A stretch of DNA of 41,509 nt. It comes from Thermodesulfovibrio sp. GTDB lineage: Bacteria; Nitrospirota; Thermodesulfovibrionia; Thermodesulfovibrionales; Thermodesulfovibrionaceae. The stretch covers positions 1 through 41,509 of the forward strand of contig JANXBR010000004.1 in NCBI GenBank assembly GCA_025060625.1, in the 5' to 3' direction. Below the pieces are notes generated by a model, which was not told where the DNA came from, ran no database searches, and was given only the letters and a program-made list of their open reading frames with translations. Below, piece by piece: positions 29,682 through 39,557 of the stretch. The first letter of the stretch is position 1, and each line of letters opens with the position of its first letter. Position numbers and translations under genes: made by a program.

Positions 29682-31712
29682 TTAAGCCTCACTATTAACT
29701 GAAATTAAGTAAAAAGAGCTTTTCAATTCTTCAATGAGTTTTAATCTATGTTGATGACAACTGAGTATAATTACTTGATTTGAATTTGAAATCTCCTTTA
29801 TTAAATATTTCATGCCCTTAATAAATCTTTCATCATCTGAGTGTGCAAATGGTTCATCCAGTATAAAAGGAATTTTTATACCCCTACTTAGTAAGTCAGC
29901 AAGCATAAGTCTTACAGTAAGGTATATTTGTTCTGTTATGCCTCCGCTAAGTTTGCTCTCAATTTCTTTTTCAGATAAGGGATATTCAATTTCTGGAACT
30001 TTTATATTAAAAGATAAGTCTTTACCAAAAGATATATATACTGTTTTGTCTGTTATCTTACTTAAAAGTGTTGAAGCCTTTTTGTTTAATTTTTCAGACC
30101 AGCGTTCATGATGTTTTTTTGTAATATTTTCAAGTACTTCAAAAGATTTTTGTAAAGCCCTTTTAAATCTTTCCAGATTTTCTATGTTTTTTGTAATAGA
30201 CTGAATTTGTTCAGTTATTTTTTCAATTTCTTTTCTGTATTGTATAATTTTATCGTAATCTGCTTGTAGTTTATGAAGATTATCTTTTATCTGTTCTTTA
30301 AGTTTAATAAGTTTTTCCCTTTTCTGTTCATATTGTTCAATATTTGTATTGCTAATTTCATTATTTTTGGAAATAATTTTTGATTCATAGAAGTCTATTT
30401 CATTTTTTGAAAGTAGAAGTTTTTTAAACTCTTCAATTTTTCTGGAATTTTCAATAAATTCTTTAATTTCATTTTTATGTGTATTCATTTTTTTAAAAAA
30501 ACTGAAGAATTCACTTTTGTCATTTATTGGGATGGTAAAATTAGAAATTATATTGTTTATTTTTTCAGAAATATCATCATATTTTAATTTTAAAGTTTTT
30601 ATTTCATGGTTTAGTTTTTTATTTTCGCTATTAAGTTTGAATTGATAAAAAAGGCTAAAAATACAGAAAATAATTCCAATATAAAATATTTTATCTATAA
30701 AAATTCCCCCTAAAATACTAAAAATAGCTGTTAGAATACTTATCAAATATACATTTTTTAGAAATTTTTTTGTTTTTTCTTTTCTTTCTTCATTTAATAT
30801 TAAATCTCTCTGTAAAGACTGAACTTCATTTTCATAAAGAACTATAAATTGTTGCTCTTCAGGTTTTAGATTTTCAAAATCTTTAGAAAACTGCACAATT
30901 CGTTCAAGTTCTTTTAATTCGTTATTTCTTTTTTCAAGATTTTGAATTTCTGCACGGTAAAAATTATCTTGTTGAATTTTCCATGTAGCATAATCACTAT
31001 CAAGTTTTATAAGCTTGTAGTTTATGTTATCAAATTCAGAAAGTAATTCAGTGTAATTTTTAATAATTTCCGTTTCTTTTTCTATTAAATTTTGTAGATA
31101 TGATTTTTTTTCTTCGTAATCAGATAGTTTTTCTTCCCATATTTTTATTGCTGTATCCAGCTTACCTTTTGTAATAAAAGGAAATAATGCACCACTGTGA
31201 ATGTTATCATAAAGTGCTTCTTTTATTTTGGATAAAGCTGAAGATGCTGATGTATCCCGAAAACCTGTATCAATAGCCTGTTCTAAAAAGGATGTGACTG
31301 GATAGAGTTCTTTGGTATTTATTCCCGACTTTTGAGCTAAGTAAGAACTATTAATGAAAATTTCTCTCGGAATGTTAAAAATAATCTCTCCAGGTAGTTT
31401 TTTTATTATTTTTCCTTTATTTTTAGTTTCATATTTTATAGGATTGCCATTTTTAAATATCTGATATCCTTTGTAATTTCTTGTAATCTGAAAAAATTCA
31501 TTATCTGCCTCTATTTCCAGTGTAATCTTTCCATTGTTCAAAGGTATTATAGGCTGTTTTGATGGATAAAGAGCTTCAACTATAGATTTTGCAAGAACAG
31601 ACTTGCCAGTTTCATTTCTGTCAATTATTAAATTGCAAGAATGTTCAAAAATAAATTCTTTATTTTTATAAGGTCCGATATTTTCTATTAATATTCTTTT
31701 AATTCTCATCAT
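29682..31712 (-). CDS. Rad50/SbcC/YhaN-like coiled-coil AAA ATPase with a central membrane hairpin
   Basis: DRNETGKS P-loop, LSGGITEQIYL signature, IPFILDEPFAHSDDERF Walker B/D-loop, SCHQH H-loop; hydrophobic pair VYLISILTAIFSILGGIFI / IFYIGIIFCIFSLFYQF mid-coil. Confidence 0.88.
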   Translation of the reverse strand: MMRIKRILIENIGPYKNKEFIFEHSCNLIIDRNETGKSVLAKSIVEALYPSKQPIIPLNNGKITLEIEADNEFFQITRNYKGYQIFKNGNPIKYETKNKGKIIKKLPGEIIFNIPREIFINSSYLAQKSGINTKELYPVTSFLEQAIDTGFRDTSASSALSKIKEALYDNIHSGALFPFITKGKLDTAIKIWEEKLSDYEEKKSYLQNLIEKETEIIKNYTELLSEFDNINYKLIKLDSDYATWKIQQDNFYRAEIQNLEKRNNELKELERIVQFSKDFENLKPEEQQFIVLYENEVQSLQRDLILNEERKEKTKKFLKNVYLISILTAIFSILGGIFIDKIFYIGIIFCIFSLFYQFKLNSENKKLNHEIKTLKLKYDDISEKINNIISNFTIPINDKSEFFSFFKKMNTHKNEIKEFIENSRKIEEFKKLLLSKNEIDFYESKIISKNNEISNTNIEQYEQKREKLIKLKEQIKDNLHKLQADYDKIIQYRKEIEKITEQIQSITKNIENLERFKRALQKSFEVLENITKKHHERWSEKLNKKASTLLSKITDKTVYISFGKDLSFNIKVPEIEYPLSEKEIESKLSGGITEQIYLTVRLMLADLLSRGIKIPFILDEPFAHSDDERFIKGMKYLIKEISNSNQVIILSCHQHRLKLIEELKSSFYLISVNSEA

Positions 31713-32838
31713 AAAATCTTGGAGTTATTTGTTTACCAGCAAAAGCATCAAGCCCATAGATTAAAGCATCTTCAAGAATTTGTTTTTCTCTGCCATCGGC
31801 ATTTTCAATGAGTTTGAGCATTTCATTAATAAATGTACCCATAGTTGTTTCTGGTGAAGTTTCTTTCAGTTTTTCCATATCAAATTTTGTGAATTCAGAA
31901 GTATCAAACAGAATTTTGTATTCAGAGAAAAGCTCTTTTAAATACATTATGCTTAAATCACCCATACCTTTAATTTTTAAAATAAAAAGACTATCCTTAG
32001 GATTATTACTGTCTGATATTTCAGATAATATGACATTTTTAATTTTTTCAATATTTTGAGAGGGTGAAACTTCAATCTTTTTGATTGAGAAATCACTTAA
32101 TTCAACGAATTCTACTTCAGTAGATATTTTGTTATCTTTTTTTATAATCTCAACAATCAATCCACCTCTTTTTCCATATTCAGCAATGGAAACTGGTACC
32201 ATACTGCCTGGATAGGCTGATTTAATTACTGAACCATCAGAGATTTCAGAGTAGTTATGATAATGTCCAAGAGCAACATAGTCAAAATTAGAATTTAATA
32301 TATCTTTGTCTTCAAAAGGATTCCATATTTCCTTACCCTGTGGAGAAAAATTTATTCTTGATGCATGAATTACAGCTATATTAATTTTTGATGGCTCAAT
32401 ATTGATTGGCTTATCAAAGGCTTTAGCTTGTCTATTTAAGCATGGTTTGCCATAAATATTTATATCTCCAAATGAAAAATTGGAGAATTCTGGTATTTTA
32501 AAAATTTTTACATTTTCGCTCCAATCCTTAATTCTTAATATATTTAGAAATCTTTGATCATAGGCACAATTAAAGTTTAAAAAATCATGATTTCCTGGAG
32601 AAATTACTACTGGTTTAGGATGAATTAATTCAAAAGTTTCATTTAAAAACTCTATATCCTCCCTGTAAATTTTATCGTTTTCAAATAAATCTCCCGAAAT
32701 TATTAGGGCATCAAGATTATTATCTCTGACTATATTAATTGCCTTTAATATAGCTCTCTTACAATATTTAGTTCTATCTAAGCCTCTAATTTGAAAGCCC
32801 AAATGAAGATCCGCAACATGTAAAAATTTGAATTTCAT
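31699..32838 (-). CDS. Mre11/SbcD-like metallophosphoesterase
   Basis: FLHVADLHLG, ISGDLFEND, ISPGNHDF, AVIHASR, VALGHYHNY phosphoesterase motifs; overlaps the Rad50-like gene by 14 nt. Confidence 0.92.
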   Translation of the reverse strand: MKFKFLHVADLHLGFQIRGLDRTKYCKRAILKAINIVRDNNLDALIISGDLFENDKIYREDIEFLNETFELIHPKPVVISPGNHDFLNFNCAYDQRFLNILRIKDWSENVKIFKIPEFSNFSFGDINIYGKPCLNRQAKAFDKPINIEPSKINIAVIHASRINFSPQGKEIWNPFEDKDILNSNFDYVALGHYHNYSEISDGSVIKSAYPGSMVPVSIAEYGKRGGLIVEIIKKDNKISTEVEFVELSDFSIKKIEVSPSQNIEKIKNVILSEISDSNNPKDSLFILKIKGMGDLSIMYLKELFSEYKILFDTSEFTKFDMEKLKETSPETTMGTFINEMLKLIENADGREKQILEDALIYGLDAFAGKQITPRFYDEN

Positions 32839-32937
32839 AGTTTTATTATAAGAGATTTTTTTCTATTTGATGTATGAGAATAATTATCGTTTCAAATAAG
32901 AAAGCCAATTTTGTATCTTTAAATATTATATTTAAAA

Positions 32938-34200
32938 TCAACTCTTATTTTTTAAAATAAAATCGTAAAATATTTTAATATTATGGAATCCTCTTCTTTT
33001 ATTTCTATTTGAACCTCTAAATATTATTACTTCCACACCAATTTTTCTGCATATCTCACAATTACATTTTTCCCAGGGTCTATCCATTAATGTCTTTCTA
33101 TATTTATCGTAATGGTGATTACCGTCATATTCTCTTAAAAGAAGTTTATCGTATTCAAGAATCGTATTTAGAACTTCTTCAATATTTTTTGTTTTTCTGT
33201 CTGCATAATCTCTTAAGACTTTTAATGCTTTTGTTTCCATTTCTATTACTTTGTCTATTGAATAGCCCTCTTTTAAGGCATTTTTTATTAATACAGGATT
33301 ATCAGAATAGGGTACTCTTATTGCAGCATACCAATCCCCATTTTTTGTAATATAATTTCTACCTGCTCTTAACCATGCTTTTCTTAAAAATGAAGCACTA
33401 TCAAGACTTGAAACACCTAAGGATTTGAATTCCTTTATTATTTGTGGACGTAGTATTCCGAAAAGATGAATTTTAATATTTTTTTTAGCAATAACTTTTT
33501 TCACTCTTTTAAGAATTTCAACTATTTCATCATCTGATTTCGGCACTAATGTGCCAATTCCAATATATGAATATCCCATTTCAATTAATCTTGCTGTGGA
33601 ATCTGCATAAGTCTCTGGTGAGTAACCTTGCACTGCTCCAATAGGTATGAAGTTTAGATTTTTCTTTCTATGATATTTAATAAAATCCTTAGCATTACTA
33701 ATGCTTAACTGACGTCTTTGTTCTTTTTGCTGGTCTGTGAGTGGAATTTTTATCTTTTTATTTCCATCAACTTTTTTTACTATTATATCTGGAATCATGT
33801 GGTCAACTGAAACACCGTAGTCAAATCTTAGAGATTGATATGTTTCAGCAACTTTCTCAGTATGATAATCATCTGGTGGTATTTCTTCATTAATATAACT
33901 AAATGCGCCACAATCTCCCATGACTTCTAATTTTGATTTGGGATGTATTTTAAGATATTCTTTGATAGAACCGTAAGTTCTGACTTGCCTTTGTCCATTG
34001 ATGTCTGAATTTAAATTAATTTTATTTTTGAAAATTGCTAAACTAACTAAAATTCCGTCATAGGGAGGCTTTTTGAAAATTTGGTGAGCATATATATCAG
34101 TATCATAGGCTATGGATTTATCTCTGCTGAATTCATCATTTTCAAAGTTATAATTTGGATCTAATCGGTCTTCCCAATCAGGTAAAAAGTAACGCATCAA
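32938..34200 (-). CDS. TGT-superfamily protein, DpdA-like (putative base-exchange transglycosylase)
   Basis: GDCGAF and SLDSASF align with the TGT catalytic-Asp regions; PIGAVQGYSPETYADSTARLIEMGYSYIGIGTLVP aligns with the G-V-Q-G / A-I-G-G-L regions; CNCEIC...FHN matches the CxCxxC...H zinc site. Start TTG 34200 or ATG 34197. Confidence 0.82.
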   Translation of the reverse strand: MMRYFLPDWEDRLDPNYNFENDEFSRDKSIAYDTDIYAHQIFKKPPYDGILVSLAIFKNKINLNSDINGQRQVRTYGSIKEYLKIHPKSKLEVMGDCGAFSYINEEIPPDDYHTEKVAETYQSLRFDYGVSVDHMIPDIIVKKVDGNKKIKIPLTDQQKEQRRQLSISNAKDFIKYHRKKNLNFIPIGAVQGYSPETYADSTARLIEMGYSYIGIGTLVPKSDDEIVEILKRVKKVIAKKNIKIHLFGILRPQIIKEFKSLGVSSLDSASFLRKAWLRAGRNYITKNGDWYAAIRVPYSDNPVLIKNALKEGYSIDKVIEMETKALKVLRDYADRKTKNIEEVLNTILEYDKLLLREYDGNHHYDKYRKTLMDRPWEKCNCEICRKIGVEVIIFRGSNRNKRRGFHNIKIFYDFILKNKS

Positions 34201-34203
34201 TCA

Positions 34204-35979
34204 TTATTTATTTTTATTAATTTCGTCTAAAAATTTATTTATCCTATCATCAGCATTTTCAGTGTGAATAGGTATTGGAATAGCATCAAGTCCTGTTGCA
34301 TCATAACTAACGAGAAGCCAATCACCTTTTTTAAATTTAAATGTTTGCTTAAATATATCCTCTGATATTCCAAAAGCCTGAGCTACCACTTCTCTGTCTG
34401 TTTGTCTTGGAAGCTTGCTTATAAAGTAAGTATGAGGCTGTGCCATTATACTTGTATCCAGATATCTTACCCTCTGTGTAGCTATTCCGAGCCCTAATCC
34501 AAATTTTCTCCCTCTTCGCGCTATGGTCATAGCAATAGATGAAGACAGTTCATATGAACCCTTTGGTTGTTGGGGAATAAACTCATCAGCTTCGTCAAAA
34601 ACAAATAGACATAGTGGAGTTATTTCACCTGTCATACGCCTATTATCATATAATTCGTTGCCTAATCTATGGGCAAACTCTCTTAGTATATCAGGGTTGT
34701 GAGAGTTTATTATATAAAGAGAGGAAGATGTTTTGTCATTAAGTTCAGAAATTATCTCATTAGTGGTTATACCACATTTAATATCTTTGTTACTTGTTAA
34801 AATCACACTTTTTAATACATTAATTAGATTTGAAAAATCTTCTCTATATTGATTAAACTTTTCAGTTTTTTCTAAATTTTGCAGTAATTTTTGCGCTAAA
34901 TCAGAAGTTAATTTCTCATCTTGGTCTTTGTATTTGCCAAAAACTTGTCCGATAATATTATTTATATTATTCCAATGAGAAGAACCTTTTTGCCTTTTGC
35001 CCCAGGGATTACCTTTTTGTACAGCCTGATCAACGGTTAAATCTAAAAGTTCCTGCCATAGTTTGATTTTCTTGTGGTATATTAACAATCCCAAAGGTTT
35101 TATAAAGTCATTCTGTCTTCTTTTAAGCATCTTTGGAAGTAAAGTGGTTTTTTGATAAATTTCAGCGATCTGTCTTGTTAATTTGATCTCATTATTTAAG
35201 CATTTAAAGACAATATCAGGTAGAGTCTTTTCCTCAAGGCATATAATTTTTGCTTTAGGAATTTTTAGAAGCTGATCAATTAAAAGTGCCGTATATTCTC
35301 CCATTAGATCAAATAATATTATCTTTACGGGTTCTTTAGTATTCTCTAAAATTTTGCTTATTAATGTGCTCATAAAGTTAGATTTACCTGCACCAGTGAA
35401 ACCAAATACTCCAAAATGAACCTTTATCAGGTCTTCAATTCGGAGTAGTATGTTAATCTCAGGGTCTCTTACTAAATTACCTATTATTAATGTATTTTCA
35501 ACTTCTGGATTTATCCCCAAATTAATAACTCTCTGTGTATATTCATTATTTAACAAATTAACCTTTGCTCCAATCATAGGAATGTTTTCCTCTATTTGAA
35601 AAGTGGTTTCATCATTAGTAAGTTTGAGCTCAAAATTAGTAGGAACAGCAATACACCTTATTTTTGTTGTGTCTTCAGTAGATTCATTTTCTTGCTCCCA
35701 GTCCAAACATGCGCTGTGTGCAGCTTCAACAATAAATCCAGGGTAGCCACTGATATCAGAGCCAAGAGCATAATGCATAGGTAAAATTGAGACTATCTCT
35801 AAAATACTCAAATGTGTTTCCATATTATTTGATGCAAAATTAGGAACAACAACCATAGTACCTTCACGAATAAGATTTATAGCTTTTTTTGTATAATCAA
35901 ACCAGATTTCAAACTCGTATCTTGTATCTGGATTCTCCGTGATTTTCATTAATGTGCCAAATATATTTGGAATAAACAT
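34204..35979 (-). CDS. HerA-type FtsK/VirB4-superfamily ATPase
   Basis: HVGVFGFTGAGKSNFMSTLISK-type Walker A (FGFTGAGKSN), LCLFVFDEADEFIP Walker B, LGIATQRVRYLDTSIMAQPHTYFISKLPRQTDREVVAQAFG. Confidence 0.9.
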   Translation of the reverse strand: MFIPNIFGTLMKITENPDTRYEFEIWFDYTKKAINLIREGTMVVVPNFASNNMETHLSILEIVSILPMHYALGSDISGYPGFIVEAAHSACLDWEQENESTEDTTKIRCIAVPTNFELKLTNDETTFQIEENIPMIGAKVNLLNNEYTQRVINLGINPEVENTLIIGNLVRDPEINILLRIEDLIKVHFGVFGFTGAGKSNFMSTLISKILENTKEPVKIILFDLMGEYTALLIDQLLKIPKAKIICLEEKTLPDIVFKCLNNEIKLTRQIAEIYQKTTLLPKMLKRRQNDFIKPLGLLIYHKKIKLWQELLDLTVDQAVQKGNPWGKRQKGSSHWNNINNIIGQVFGKYKDQDEKLTSDLAQKLLQNLEKTEKFNQYREDFSNLINVLKSVILTSNKDIKCGITTNEIISELNDKTSSSLYIINSHNPDILREFAHRLGNELYDNRRMTGEITPLCLFVFDEADEFIPQQPKGSYELSSSIAMTIARRGRKFGLGLGIATQRVRYLDTSIMAQPHTYFISKLPRQTDREVVAQAFGISEDIFKQTFKFKKGDWLLVSYDATGLDAIPIPIHTENADDRINKFLDEINKNK

Positions 35980-35980
35980 T

Positions 35981-37834
35981 TTATATCCTCCTTAAGCTGT
36001 CTCTTATAATTCTAAAGGTTTTACTAAGAGGATTTGCTCTGAATGAAATTTCGCTATTTTTTATTAATTCTTTTACCTTCTTTCCTATGGATTTTGCTCC
36101 CCAATCAGCCTTGTGTAGAGGATCGGGATAACCAATTACTTCGGGAAAGTGATTTCGTGTAAGAGTGCTTAGAAAATAAAGCATGATATCCTGTCCGATA
36201 TTAGGTGTATTATTATAGGGACAATAAAAAAGTGATAATTCTCCAATTTCGTCATTTTTAATTTTTAAGCTTAGTTTATCAGTATCCCATTCAGAATACA
36301 AAAGTCTATCCAGAAAAACAACATGACCCATTAATGGAGTTGCCTTATTTCTCTTAATAAAAAATTGAGCTAAGGACCTAGCAAAAAGTTTTTCATTAAA
36401 TACAATTGAGCCTTTTACTCCCGAAATAATAGGTGATTTTGATGGATCCTGCTGATATAAAAATAACGTCATAAAAGCTGAATCAATTTCAATAGATGAC
36501 CAGGGTGCTTCTAAATTTTCATCACATAGGGGCAATGTCTCAAGAAATATACGGTCTGTCCATGGTAATTGAAGAACTTGTAATTCATTTAATTCAGGAT
36601 AAAGTTCTAAATATTTTAAAACTCCAAGATAGTTTCTTGATAAGTATCTTGAATGTGAATCCTTAACTACTCCTGTAAGTAAAATTTTTCTCTTCCAACA
36701 CTCTTCTATCAATGCTCTTATTCCCACAGAGATTAAGAATTTAATATCATTAGGAGATAACCACCTTCTACGCCTTATACCCCTTTCATCAGCAGAATCG
36801 TAAATCAAAGCTGATTGGTCCTTTTCTATAAAAAGCTTACGACAAAGGTTCTGAAAAAAACTTTTTACATATTCCCATGAAGCTTCAACATCAACAAGAG
36901 GTCTTAAAATACCACCTTTTAAATCAGCTATTTTATTGTCAATAACATATTTAATTGCACCGCTAATCTTACCATTTGAAAATCCGAGATCTTCTATTGT
37001 TAAGCCATATTCTTTTGCTAATTGGTAAACATCTAAAGGTTTGGATCCATTTGAGTGAAATTTTGAGATAATTAAAGAGTATCTTTTAAATTTTTTAGTT
37101 CCAGGAATTCCAAGTTTTAAATTAAAAGGATGAGCAAAGGCAATAGCAATATCAGCCATATCTATGGTTCTTCTGTCATATGGATAACATCCTGCTAAAT
37201 GAACCTGTATAGGTTCAATAGCTACACTTGCCATAAGTGAACTTGGTGATAAATCAAGCATCAATAATTTGGGAGATTCTAAAACGGAACTTGTTACTAC
37301 GTTATAGGCAAGAAAAATTTCAGCTAATTGCATTATTGAAGTTTGAATGTTGGAAAGATCGATTCGGTCTGAATCAGAAACTACAAAGGTTTCCTCCATA
37401 TCTGTATCAGTAATGTCTGAAAGTTGCGCAAAGGGAATAGGTATATAGGCAACCATGCTTACATCCTTATTAATTTCCCATTTTTGATACCTAACCTTTG
37501 GAGGCTCTCCTTCAATTGAAATACTGCCTTTTGCTCCATAGGCTCCACCAAAGAAGATGATAAAATCCTTAAAAGGTTCTTTACTACAGGTTCCATCAAT
37601 TGCTACAAAATCTATTTGTTCTTTTTCAAAAAATTTTAAGATTTCTCTTTTTAATCTATAAAGATTTCCTGAGTTAGAGAATATCGGTTTATATTGTTTA
37701 ATTAATTTATAGAAAAAATCTTTGTAAAAGGCTTGTGCATTGCTAACTCTCTCAATATATAACTCTTGATATCTTTTCTTTGAATAATCAAGGGAGTTTT
37801 TGTAATTGCCAAATATTTTTGATATAGTTGACAA
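35981..37834 (-). CDS. NurA-domain 5'-3' nuclease
   Basis: FVAIDGTCS metal-site motif, LLTGVVKDSHSRYLS, and the C-terminal GYPDPLHKADWGAKSIG motif. Start reassigned to TTG 37834 behind AAAGGAGG; the ORF track starts at 37864. Confidence 0.87.
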   Translation of the reverse strand: MSTISKIFGNYKNSLDYSKKRYQELYIERVSNAQAFYKDFFYKLIKQYKPIFSNSGNLYRLKREILKFFEKEQIDFVAIDGTCSKEPFKDFIIFFGGAYGAKGSISIEGEPPKVRYQKWEINKDVSMVAYIPIPFAQLSDITDTDMEETFVVSDSDRIDLSNIQTSIMQLAEIFLAYNVVTSSVLESPKLLMLDLSPSSLMASVAIEPIQVHLAGCYPYDRRTIDMADIAIAFAHPFNLKLGIPGTKKFKRYSLIISKFHSNGSKPLDVYQLAKEYGLTIEDLGFSNGKISGAIKYVIDNKIADLKGGILRPLVDVEASWEYVKSFFQNLCRKLFIEKDQSALIYDSADERGIRRRRWLSPNDIKFLISVGIRALIEECWKRKILLTGVVKDSHSRYLSRNYLGVLKYLELYPELNELQVLQLPWTDRIFLETLPLCDENLEAPWSSIEIDSAFMTLFLYQQDPSKSPIISGVKGSIVFNEKLFARSLAQFFIKRNKATPLMGHVVFLDRLLYSEWDTDKLSLKIKNDEIGELSLFYCPYNNTPNIGQDIMLYFLSTLTRNHFPEVIGYPDPLHKADWGAKSIGKKVKELIKNSEISFRANPLSKTFRIIRDSLRRI

Positions 37835-37836
37835 TC

Positions 37837-38304
37837 TTATTCCTCCTTTAAAGTTTGAATCCATTTTTTTAATTGGGACATCTTTAAACCTATACCACCT
37901 GTTGCATATAGAAATTGAGTCTTTTTGGAAAATATAGTTTCAAATCCTTCAATTGCCGATAAATAATCTTTGCCTAAACAGATAAATATTTTACTAATAT
38001 GATAGCATTCCACTTGCTTTTTTAATGAATTTAGAAGAAATGGTTTCATATATGTTTTTGAGTCTAATCGGTGGTCATAATAACTAATATAATCAGAGGG
38101 TTTGATAAATCCGTATTTGGCTGATAAGATTATAATGCTAAGGTTTTCAGGAAACCCTTCTTCTCTCTCTATTTTCTTTAACATCCTAAAAATAACACCA
38201 TCATACAACTCCCATGCTTCCACTTTTCCTAAAACTTTTTTCTTACGTTGCGAGCATGAGATAATAAGTAAATTCGATTTTGTAATCTTACAACTTTTCT
38301 TCAT
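37837..38304 (-). CDS. DUF6884/YaaA-like protein
   Basis: LIISCSQRKKK...AWELYDG...IIILSAKYGFIKPSDYISYYDHRL pattern. Confidence 0.7.
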   Translation of the reverse strand: MKKSCKITKSNLLIISCSQRKKKVLGKVEAWELYDGVIFRMLKKIEREEGFPENLSIIILSAKYGFIKPSDYISYYDHRLDSKTYMKPFLLNSLKKQVECYHISKIFICLGKDYLSAIEGFETIFSKKTQFLYATGGIGLKMSQLKKWIQTLKEE

Positions 38305-38333: not shown

Positions 38334-39557
38334 CTATCTAAATTTATATCTTATTTCCTCCAATGCCTCCTCTTTTTTTGAAATCTTACCCGCAAGGACA
38401 AGGATCTCTATTCTTTCAAGAATTTCTCCAATCAGAGGAGATGGTTCAAAGCCAAGAGAAAGTATGTCTTCTCCTTTGATAATTGGAAGTTTTCTCTTAT
38501 TTTTGAGATAAACTTTTTTATAAAAACTCTCAATTTCCCTATAAAACCATGCTCTTGCCATTCCAATCGGATCTACACTTATGCCATAGATAAGGGCAGG
38601 ATATAGGATATTTTCGTAATTTTGGATAAATCTTACCTTATCAAGTAGTGTTTCTATTTTTTTGATGCTATCGCCTGCCTCTATCAGTTTTTCTATAAAT
38701 CTTTCCTCTTTTTTTGATGGTTTTATCTGTTTTATTAATGAGGGAGCATGAAAACCAAAAACTCCTGAAAATTTTAGACAGACTATTGTATTTAAACCGA
38801 GAGTTTTATAGTAGTTAAAGATTTTTTCTGGATTATTTAATATTTCTTCAATTATTATCAGTGCCTGAAGATTGGGTTTTAGTGGTAATAAATCAGGAGG
38901 TTTAAAAAATGAATTAAATATTTCATCTTCTATTATCATTTCAACTGTCTTTGCACTGTTGTCCACAGAGAGTATCTGCCAGAGTTCTTCCTTTATTCTT
39001 TCCTTTGCTGTAATCCTTATTAAATGGGCATTTCTTTTCAAAGCCTCACGAGTTTTATCCTCTATATCAAAGTTCAATGTAGCATGAAATCTATAAGCTC
39101 TGAGCACTCTCAAAGGGTCTGTTTTTAGATTTTCTTCCTTCACCATCCTGATTAGTCTATTTTTTATATCCTGAAGGCCTCCAAAGGGATCAATTAGTCT
39201 ATCAAGTGAGACTTCTACAGCCATTGCATTCATTGTAAAGTCTCGCTCACCAAGATCTGCTTCAATTGAATTACCACTTAACCGAGCAAAATCAATTGTT
39301 ATATCATCTTTTACAACTCTTCCTATTGAAAAGGCTTCATCAAGAAGAACAAAGCTTCCACCTATTTGTTTTGAAAATTCCTTTGCAAGCGCTATAGAAT
39401 CTCCTTTGATTGCAAAGTCCAGATCCTTTAGCTTCCTTTTCAGAAGAAGGTCTCTAATAGAACCACCTACGAGATAACTCTCATTTATAAGTTTTTTTTC
39501 TTCAAAAAAATTTAAAATTTCTTTATAATATCGGTTCTTGGTTAATGATTCAAACAT
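38334..39557 (-). CDS. cca: CCA tRNA nucleotidyltransferase / poly(A) polymerase family
   Basis: YLVGGSIRDLLLKRKLKDLDFAI, GERDFTMNAMAVE, LIDPFGGLQDIKNRLIR, DPLRVLRAYRFHA. Confidence 0.92.
   Translation of the reverse strand: MFESLTKNRYYKEILNFFEEKKLINESYLVGGSIRDLLLKRKLKDLDFAIKGDSIALAKEFSKQIGGSFVLLDEAFSIGRVVKDDITIDFARLSGNSIEADLGERDFTMNAMAVEVSLDRLIDPFGGLQDIKNRLIRMVKEENLKTDPLRVLRAYRFHATLNFDIEDKTREALKRNAHLIRITAKERIKEELWQILSVDNSAKTVEMIIEDEIFNSFFKPPDLLPLKPNLQALIIIEEILNNPEKIFNYYKTLGLNTIVCLKFSGVFGFHAPSLIKQIKPSKKEERFIEKLIEAGDSIKKIETLLDKVRFIQNYENILYPALIYGISVDPIGMARAWFYREIESFYKKVYLKNKRKLPIIKGEDILSLGFEPSPLIGEILERIEILVLAGKISKKEEALEEIRYKFR

Follow-up and report, generated by a model that had tools for sequence, protein, structure and literature searches.

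A four-gene DUF6884-NurA-HerA-DpdA cassette in Thermodesulfovibrio, a candidate compact Dpd-type modification-restriction system

Introduction

Six co-directional open reading frames (ORFs) on the minus strand of contig JANXBR010000004.1 of Thermodesulfovibrio sp. (assembly GCA_025060625.1), arranged with tight junctions at positions 29682-38304 and flanked by cca (38334-39557) and rpsO-pnp, raise the question of what enzymes of base exchange and of DNA end processing might do together in a single bacterial locus. The window analysed was the whole 41,509-nucleotide stretch, which belongs to a genome that is 66.6% complete and consists of 184 contigs. An earlier note, made from the sequence of the window, had assigned the products as DUF6884, NurA, HerA, DpdA-like, Mre11-like and Rad50-like proteins, and had proposed one cassette that couples base modification to DNA processing. 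The position and orientation of the six ORFs were as claimed, and the gene list was confirmed. However, the six ORFs are two units, and the real cassette is the acquired set of four genes, DUF6884-NurA-HerA-DpdA (32938-38304). As judged by sequence comparisons, and with a probability of about 0.6, this cassette would be a compact modification-restriction system of the Dpd type whose effector is an end-degrading helicase-nuclease.

Delimitation of the cassette

In at least three relatives from the genus (G002, G001 and G010), mre11-rad50 lies beside rpsO-pnp without the other four genes, and the Mre11/Rad50 proteins are 83/82, 66/63 and 72/65% identical, respectively, to those of the window. 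In same-genus relatives, a small HU-like gene (assigned to HU by eye) is divergent from mre11, and cca is located elsewhere, ~1.3 Mb from pnp in G002. DNA similarity to the relatives stops at 32851, which is 13 nt upstream of where mre11 starts, and again at 38341-38353. A DpdA scoring above the cut-off was found in the window genome and in only one of 200 relatives (G173, same order, another family), and NurA was found in none of the 200. These similarity breaks, together with the missing DpdA and NurA in relatives, therefore define DUF6884-NurA-HerA-DpdA as the cassette, situated at a point of rearrangement. The Mre11-like and Rad50-like genes are long-standing residents of the genus and not members of the cassette; no homologue of either was detected near DpdA in any of the 35 related loci described below. 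A single six-gene cassette is thus ruled out, because mre11-rad50-rpsO-pnp stands alone in the relatives and the pair does not accompany DpdA elsewhere. The related suggestion, that an archaeal Mre11-Rad50-HerA-NurA set had received two additional genes, falls for the reason that Mre11 and Rad50 were not inherited with HerA and NurA.

Identity of the cassette proteins

Domain searches left the DpdA assignment certain and that of HerA sound, placed the DUF6884 protein above its cut-off and gave fair matches for Mre11 and Rad50, while the NurA assignment was weak by sequence. DpdA scored 427.5 bits with NF041059 (cut-off 200), as against only 27 bits with the tRNA model TgtA (cut-off 350), which rules out an ordinary tRNA-guanine transglycosylase (TGT). 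The profile of its family matched the solved DNA-guanine transglycosylase 7ui4 at 1.2e-177, and tRNA enzymes at 6e-8 or worse. In an alignment of seven sequences, GDCGAF, SVDH, D267 and the zinc site CxCxxC...H were all invariant, and the transglycosylase aspartates and the zinc site align through to 7ui4. The call of a DpdA-like TGT in the earlier note was borne out by the NF041059 score of 427 bits and the 7ui4 profile match, both ahead of those for tRNA enzymes. On these family matches, the protein is a true DpdA, a predicted DNA-guanine transglycosylase.

The DUF6884 protein scored 42.6 bits with PF21818 (cut-off 30), and its direct match to the DpdC model was weak (1.2e-4), covering the N-terminal part. 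It keeps the C17xxxK21 and LSAxxG motifs, with Cys, Lys and LSA invariant or nearly so. Its predicted fold was confident (predicted local distance difference test, pLDDT, 91), and the top match in the PDB was 2q07 (AF0587; E-value 1.1e-3, TM-score 0.56 by query length), with uracil-DNA glycosylases among the lower-ranked and weaker matches. AF0587 is related to ArcS, the archaeosine synthase, whose substrate is likewise the preQ0 nitrile, and we treat this as a lead only. In Nostoc, Paenibacillus and G173, DpdA carries a fused DUF6884 domain at its N-terminus; in Haloferax the fused domain is at the C-terminus and scores just under the cut-off. The Enterobacter protein that precedes dpdA scored 470 bits as DpdC and weakly as DUF6884. 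A published survey lists DUF6884 as the dpdC domain (PMC11888242), and the authors of the Pfam family point out the motifs CxxxK and LSAxxG as well as a cleft that probably binds DNA (PMC11701544). The statement that no other gene of the dpd island is present hence needed correction, as that survey and our results both identify DUF6884 as the Pfam domain of DpdC. It was upheld for the remainder, since domain searches with the window cassette proteins gave no match to DndB/DGQHR (DpdB) or to DpdD-DpdK.

HerA matched PF01935 (6e-19) and the PADLOC HerA model PDLC01055 (3e-93), its profile matched solved HerA structures, and the Walker A (GFTGAGKSN) and Walker B (FDEAD) motifs were invariant; its gene is adjacent to that of the NurA-like protein. 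The NurA call is supported by this adjacency and by the positional equivalents in the related cassettes L040 and L043, which exceed the NurA cut-off; three of four members of the NurA family match NurA. The likely start codon, TTG at 37834, follows AAGGAGG and is 2 nt past the DUF6884 stop, and homologues begin at the same point, although the longest ORF reaches 37864. A profile search of the PDB with NurA gave no match. When the profiles of the two NurA subfamilies were compared, no significant match resulted, and their relatedness is therefore based on Pfam and position.

Conservation of the four-gene set

A genome-wide scan with a single DpdA sequence found nothing, whereas an alignment-based scan of the genome collection succeeded and located 280 places with a DpdA relative, of which the best 80 were kept. 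As these loci were picked by similarity to the window DpdA, the counts given here describe its clade and not all DpdA. In the best-scoring loci, DpdA lies in a short operon with DUF6884, helicase or translocase, and nuclease genes. One frequent order is DUF6884-UvrD-PD-(D/E)XK-DpdA (archaea, Dehalococcoidia and Aquificota), and another is a DUF6884-DpdA fusion with UvrD and PD-(D/E)XK downstream (Planctomycetota, Bacillota, G173 and others). The order seen in the window, DUF6884-NurA-HerA-DpdA, recurs in Hydrogenothermaceae L043 and in L188 and L190 of the same phylum, and the order NurA-HerA-DpdA-DUF6884 was found in Poribacterium L040. NurA-HerA together with a UvrD-PD-(D/E)XK pair or fusion is present in L046, L192 and Latescibacterium L088. 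In all, the four-gene set is adjacent and co-directional in seven other loci of Aquificota, Poribacteria and Latescibacterota, and because it recurs in seven other loci from three other phyla it exceeds what chance would give. Co-occurrence elsewhere, in three phyla, was thus seen for these four genes but not for Mre11 and Rad50.

Several of these loci showed further features. In L088 (14896-18443), the UvrD gene is broken into two ORFs, between which a 379-aa ORF, perhaps an inserted element, lies on the opposite strand. Thermovibrio L046 and L045 have near-identical DpdA operons that differ in whether NurA-HerA is present beside the UvrD/PD-(D/E)XK fusion. A Cas3-like helicase gene lies near the L043 cassette (L043:1197-3449), and a gene of MmeI-type restriction-modification near that of L040 (L040:12248-15031). 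Phage records searched at the nucleotide level with the cassette gave no match.

A compact DpdA clade with exchanged effectors

In a maximum-likelihood tree of 58 DpdA domains, 36 compact rows were separated from 22 other Dpd rows (99/97), and the same split was obtained in an earlier 82-row tree (100/98). The compact clade spans many bacterial and archaeal phyla, and the branch of the window DpdA within it varies between trees. DUF6884 is present in 35 of the 36 compact loci when the window is included, and in 34 of the 35 related ones. A helicase gene is found in all 35 related loci (UvrD in 31 and NurA-HerA in seven, three having both), and a Cas4-like PD-(D/E)XK nuclease accompanies UvrD in 30 of 31 cases, the remaining locus being on a short contig. 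QueC/QueD genes lie near some compact loci (L051, L100 and L153). Single-sequence searches of modest sensitivity, in which zero means not detected, found DpdB, DpdD, DpdJ and DpdK in none of the 35 related loci, DpdE-I not having been searched individually; among 55 other DpdA loci, the same searches picked up seven with DpdB and 12 with DpdJ.

NurA-HerA is scattered inside the compact clade, and the well-supported branches force at least five changes of effector. This repeated exchange in the same operon slot suggests that NurA-HerA and UvrD-PD-(D/E)XK do the same job for the system. By gene content and tree position, the window cassette is one of the forms found in a widespread clade of compact Dpd loci, in which the putative effector slot holds either NurA-HerA or UvrD-PD-(D/E)XK.

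Proposed function

In known Dpd systems, DpdA inserts preQ0, DpdC converts dPreQ0 to dADG, and unmarked DNA is restricted (PMC12839542, PMC11888242). DpdA of phage 9g alone placed dPreQ0 into plasmid DNA (PMC6884629), which implies that DpdB may be dispensable. In Thermococcus kodakarensis, HerA-NurA degrades double-stranded DNA from the ends, attacking both strands, and the authors of that work suggest an antiviral use rather than end resection (PMC12977600). Dpd chemistry, the activity of phage 9g DpdA and end degradation by HerA-NurA together favour a system that marks its own DNA and destroys DNA that is unmarked. In the window strain, preQ0 would come from the chromosomal QueC pathway, which is a trait of the genus (QueC was strong in all 15 relatives searched). 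DpdA, given its family membership and conserved active site, would exchange guanine for preQ0 in the DNA of the host. The DUF6884 protein may convert the nitrile to the amide (dADG), or otherwise process or read the base, and the NurA-HerA motor ring and nuclease would destroy unmarked invading DNA from double-stranded ends. The patchy presence in relatives resembles that of defence genes and would support a role in defence, and the Cas3-like and MmeI neighbours in L043 and L040 are counted as defence-type context. The coupling of base modification to DNA processing proposed earlier is retained for the four genes, which are conserved across phyla, with Mre11 and Rad50 excluded from it.

Several points weigh against this assignment. 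The NurA-like protein scored 16.5 bits with PF09376, below the cut-off of 21, and a structure prediction for it from four sequences reached a pLDDT of 36, too low to be used. The DUF6884 protein lacks the part that corresponds to the second half of DpdC, and DpdB is missing although systems of the Salmonella type use it. The 66.6% complete genome of the window strain yielded a weak partial QueC match and no full QueC. How a mark would lead an end-degrading nuclease to spare self DNA is unexplained here, and both the chemistry and the defence role of the compact cassettes are predicted.

Alternative explanations

The same enzymes could serve repair or genome maintenance, with the base or the DUF6884 protein flagging damaged or special DNA whose ends the helicase-nuclease would process, and with no role against invaders. 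NurA-HerA, UvrD-nuclease and Mre11-Rad50 are indeed repair enzymes, many of the hosts are thermophiles by name, and the reported interactors of DNA lesions include a DUF6884 protein, YfjM (PMC11701544). However, the distribution is patchy and the cassette is missing from other genomes of the genus, the effectors are exchanged, many hosts show no sign of needing special repair, and DpdA of known systems marks self DNA; we therefore regard a pure repair role as unlikely. Slightly less likely still is that DpdA and DUF6884 form a lone marking module with which NurA-HerA, a separate defence module, happens to travel. This would agree with the NurA-HerA pairs of the same subfamily that L077 and L084 encode outside DpdA operons, with the PADLOC label of the HerA family as type III CRISPR-associated, and with the gain or loss of NurA-HerA between the close relatives L045 and L046. 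Yet in the window, L043, L188 and L190 the pair sits between DUF6884 and DpdA with ends touching or overlapping, it occupies the slot filled elsewhere by UvrD-PD-(D/E)XK, and every compact locus has a helicase gene.

A type IV-like attack on modified DNA, with NurA-HerA destroying 7-deazaguanine DNA and DpdA and DUF6884 removing or editing the base, is suggested by the 7-deazaguanines that phages carry (PMC6884629), by the nature of transglycosylases as base-exchange enzymes and by the presence of no separate sensor. We consider it doubtful, and more so than the two preceding explanations, since known DpdA chemistry runs toward preQ0 insertion, the DpdC-like DUF6884 in 34 of 35 loci fits synthesis, and QueC/QueD adjoin L051, L100 and L153. 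Least probable of all is a chimeric contig, in which the cassette would not truly lie between cca and mre11. The number of contigs in the assembly and the separation of cca and mre11 in relatives would allow for it, but the former partner flanks (hupB side and fumarase side) are found elsewhere in this genome, on contigs C117 and C123, where they have new neighbours, as a true rearrangement would give, and this favours rearrangement without proving it. The G+C content of the cassette (29.5-31.9%) is like that of its neighbours, and other genomes in any case confirm the four-gene unit.

Relation to known systems

The candidate modification-restriction cassette shares with the Dpd system of the Salmonella Montevideo type (dpdA-dpdK) the DpdA enzyme, the DUF6884 domain known from DpdC and the expected 7-deazaguanine mark. 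It differs in having no detected DpdB or DpdD-K, in its NurA-HerA effector and in a DpdA that belongs to a separate clade. The BREX-Related Capture (BRC) system (PMC12839542) likewise combines a HerA-type ATPase with a protein of the TGT family; however, BRC has PglZ, DUF6079, a STAND NTPase and DUF4007, and no DpdC was found by those who described it, whereas the cassette has NurA and DUF6884. As none of the six proteins matched PglZ, DUF6079, STAND NTPase or DUF4007, membership of BRC or BREX was ruled out. BRIGADE (PMC12458937) also joins Dpd-like modification genes to a different effector set, but is defined by YprA-like helicases and confined to haloarchaea, and the cassette has no YprA helicase. 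Adjacent HerA and NurA-like nuclease genes are known from archaea and Deinococcus, though the NurA of the cassette is long, divergent and tied to DpdA/DUF6884 rather than to Mre11-Rad50. The anti-phage systems Sir2-HerA and HerA-DUF4297 similarly pair a HerA ring with an effector enzyme; in the cassette HerA is paired with a NurA-like protein and linked to a DNA modification module.

No description of a HerA-NurA-DpdA cassette was found in the literature covered, and the founding Dpd work (Thiaville 2016, Yuan 2018, Gedara 2023) was outside this scope, so an earlier mention is possible. The exact operon accordingly appears unpublished, BRC and BRIGADE being the nearest hybrids and differing in core genes. 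A survey of dpd genes that demanded both dpdA and dpdB (PMC11888242) would miss the compact clade. The compact loci could represent a widespread, undescribed and minimal class of 7-deazaguanine restriction in bacteria and archaea, where DpdA and a short DpdC relative protect self from a processive end-degrader, NurA-HerA or AddAB-like and interchangeable, as a RecBCD-like machine under the control of a base mark. We advance this broader proposal tentatively, at somewhat less than an even chance. If true, the Dpd system would shrink from some ten genes to four, its modifying enzyme would have a distinct clade present across many phyla of bacteria and archaea, DUF6884 and some of the NurA-HerA pairs of bacteria would gain a role, and the manner in which a nuclease that starts from ends distinguishes marked from unmarked DNA would become testable.

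Other occurrences of NurA and HerA

Among the operons linked to DpdA, the closest NurA and HerA are those of L088 (44 and 48% identical, respectively). Near kin of the pair were observed in cyanobacteria at L077:477-7190 and L084:11159-14785 (NurA 55 and 46% identical), outside the nearby DpdA operon, and in L077 the pair adjoins a NACHT-ATPase/signal-peptidase-like protein. NurA searches of plasmids gave no new context, and neither did a search of 386 cyanobacterial genomes, which returned the query locus and one weak partial match. A HerA-like gene and its neighbour beside Dpd on a Nostoc plasmid were considered and set aside, as the HerA is distantly similar and the partner dissimilar. A distant HerA-like ATPase of ~600 aa is encoded downstream of DpdA in the non-compact loci L053, L069, L079, L091, L092, L094, L107 and L108, and may be an uncounted part of those Dpd systems.

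Features of the locus

Table 1. Genes of the cassette and the adjoining mre11-rad50 pair, with positions in the window.
Product	Position	Strand	Remarks
DUF6884 protein, short DpdC-like	37837..38304	-	155 aa; first cassette gene, 29 nt after cca; PF21818
NurA-like nuclease	35981..37834	-	TTG start likely; PF09376 below cut-off
HerA-type hexameric translocase ATPase	34204..35979	-	591 aa; PF01935, PDLC01055
DpdA, predicted DNA-guanine transglycosylase	32938..34197	-	ATG at 34197 (listed ORF: TTG 34200); NF041059
Mre11/SbcD-like phosphoesterase	31699..32838	-	context gene, native to genus, outside cassette; Metallophos
Rad50-like ATPase	29682..31712	-	context gene, native to genus, outside cassette; SMC_N, AAA_27

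For the two genes outside the cassette, the calls were fair, the Mre11-like protein matching Metallophos at 4.5e-16 and the Rad50-like protein matching SMC_N and AAA_27. The Rad50-like protein of this segment (29682-32838) lacks a CxxC zinc hook, and its coiled coil contains a hairpin that is strongly hydrophobic. We take the pair to be nearer to the YhaN/YhaO type than to classical Rad50/Mre11.

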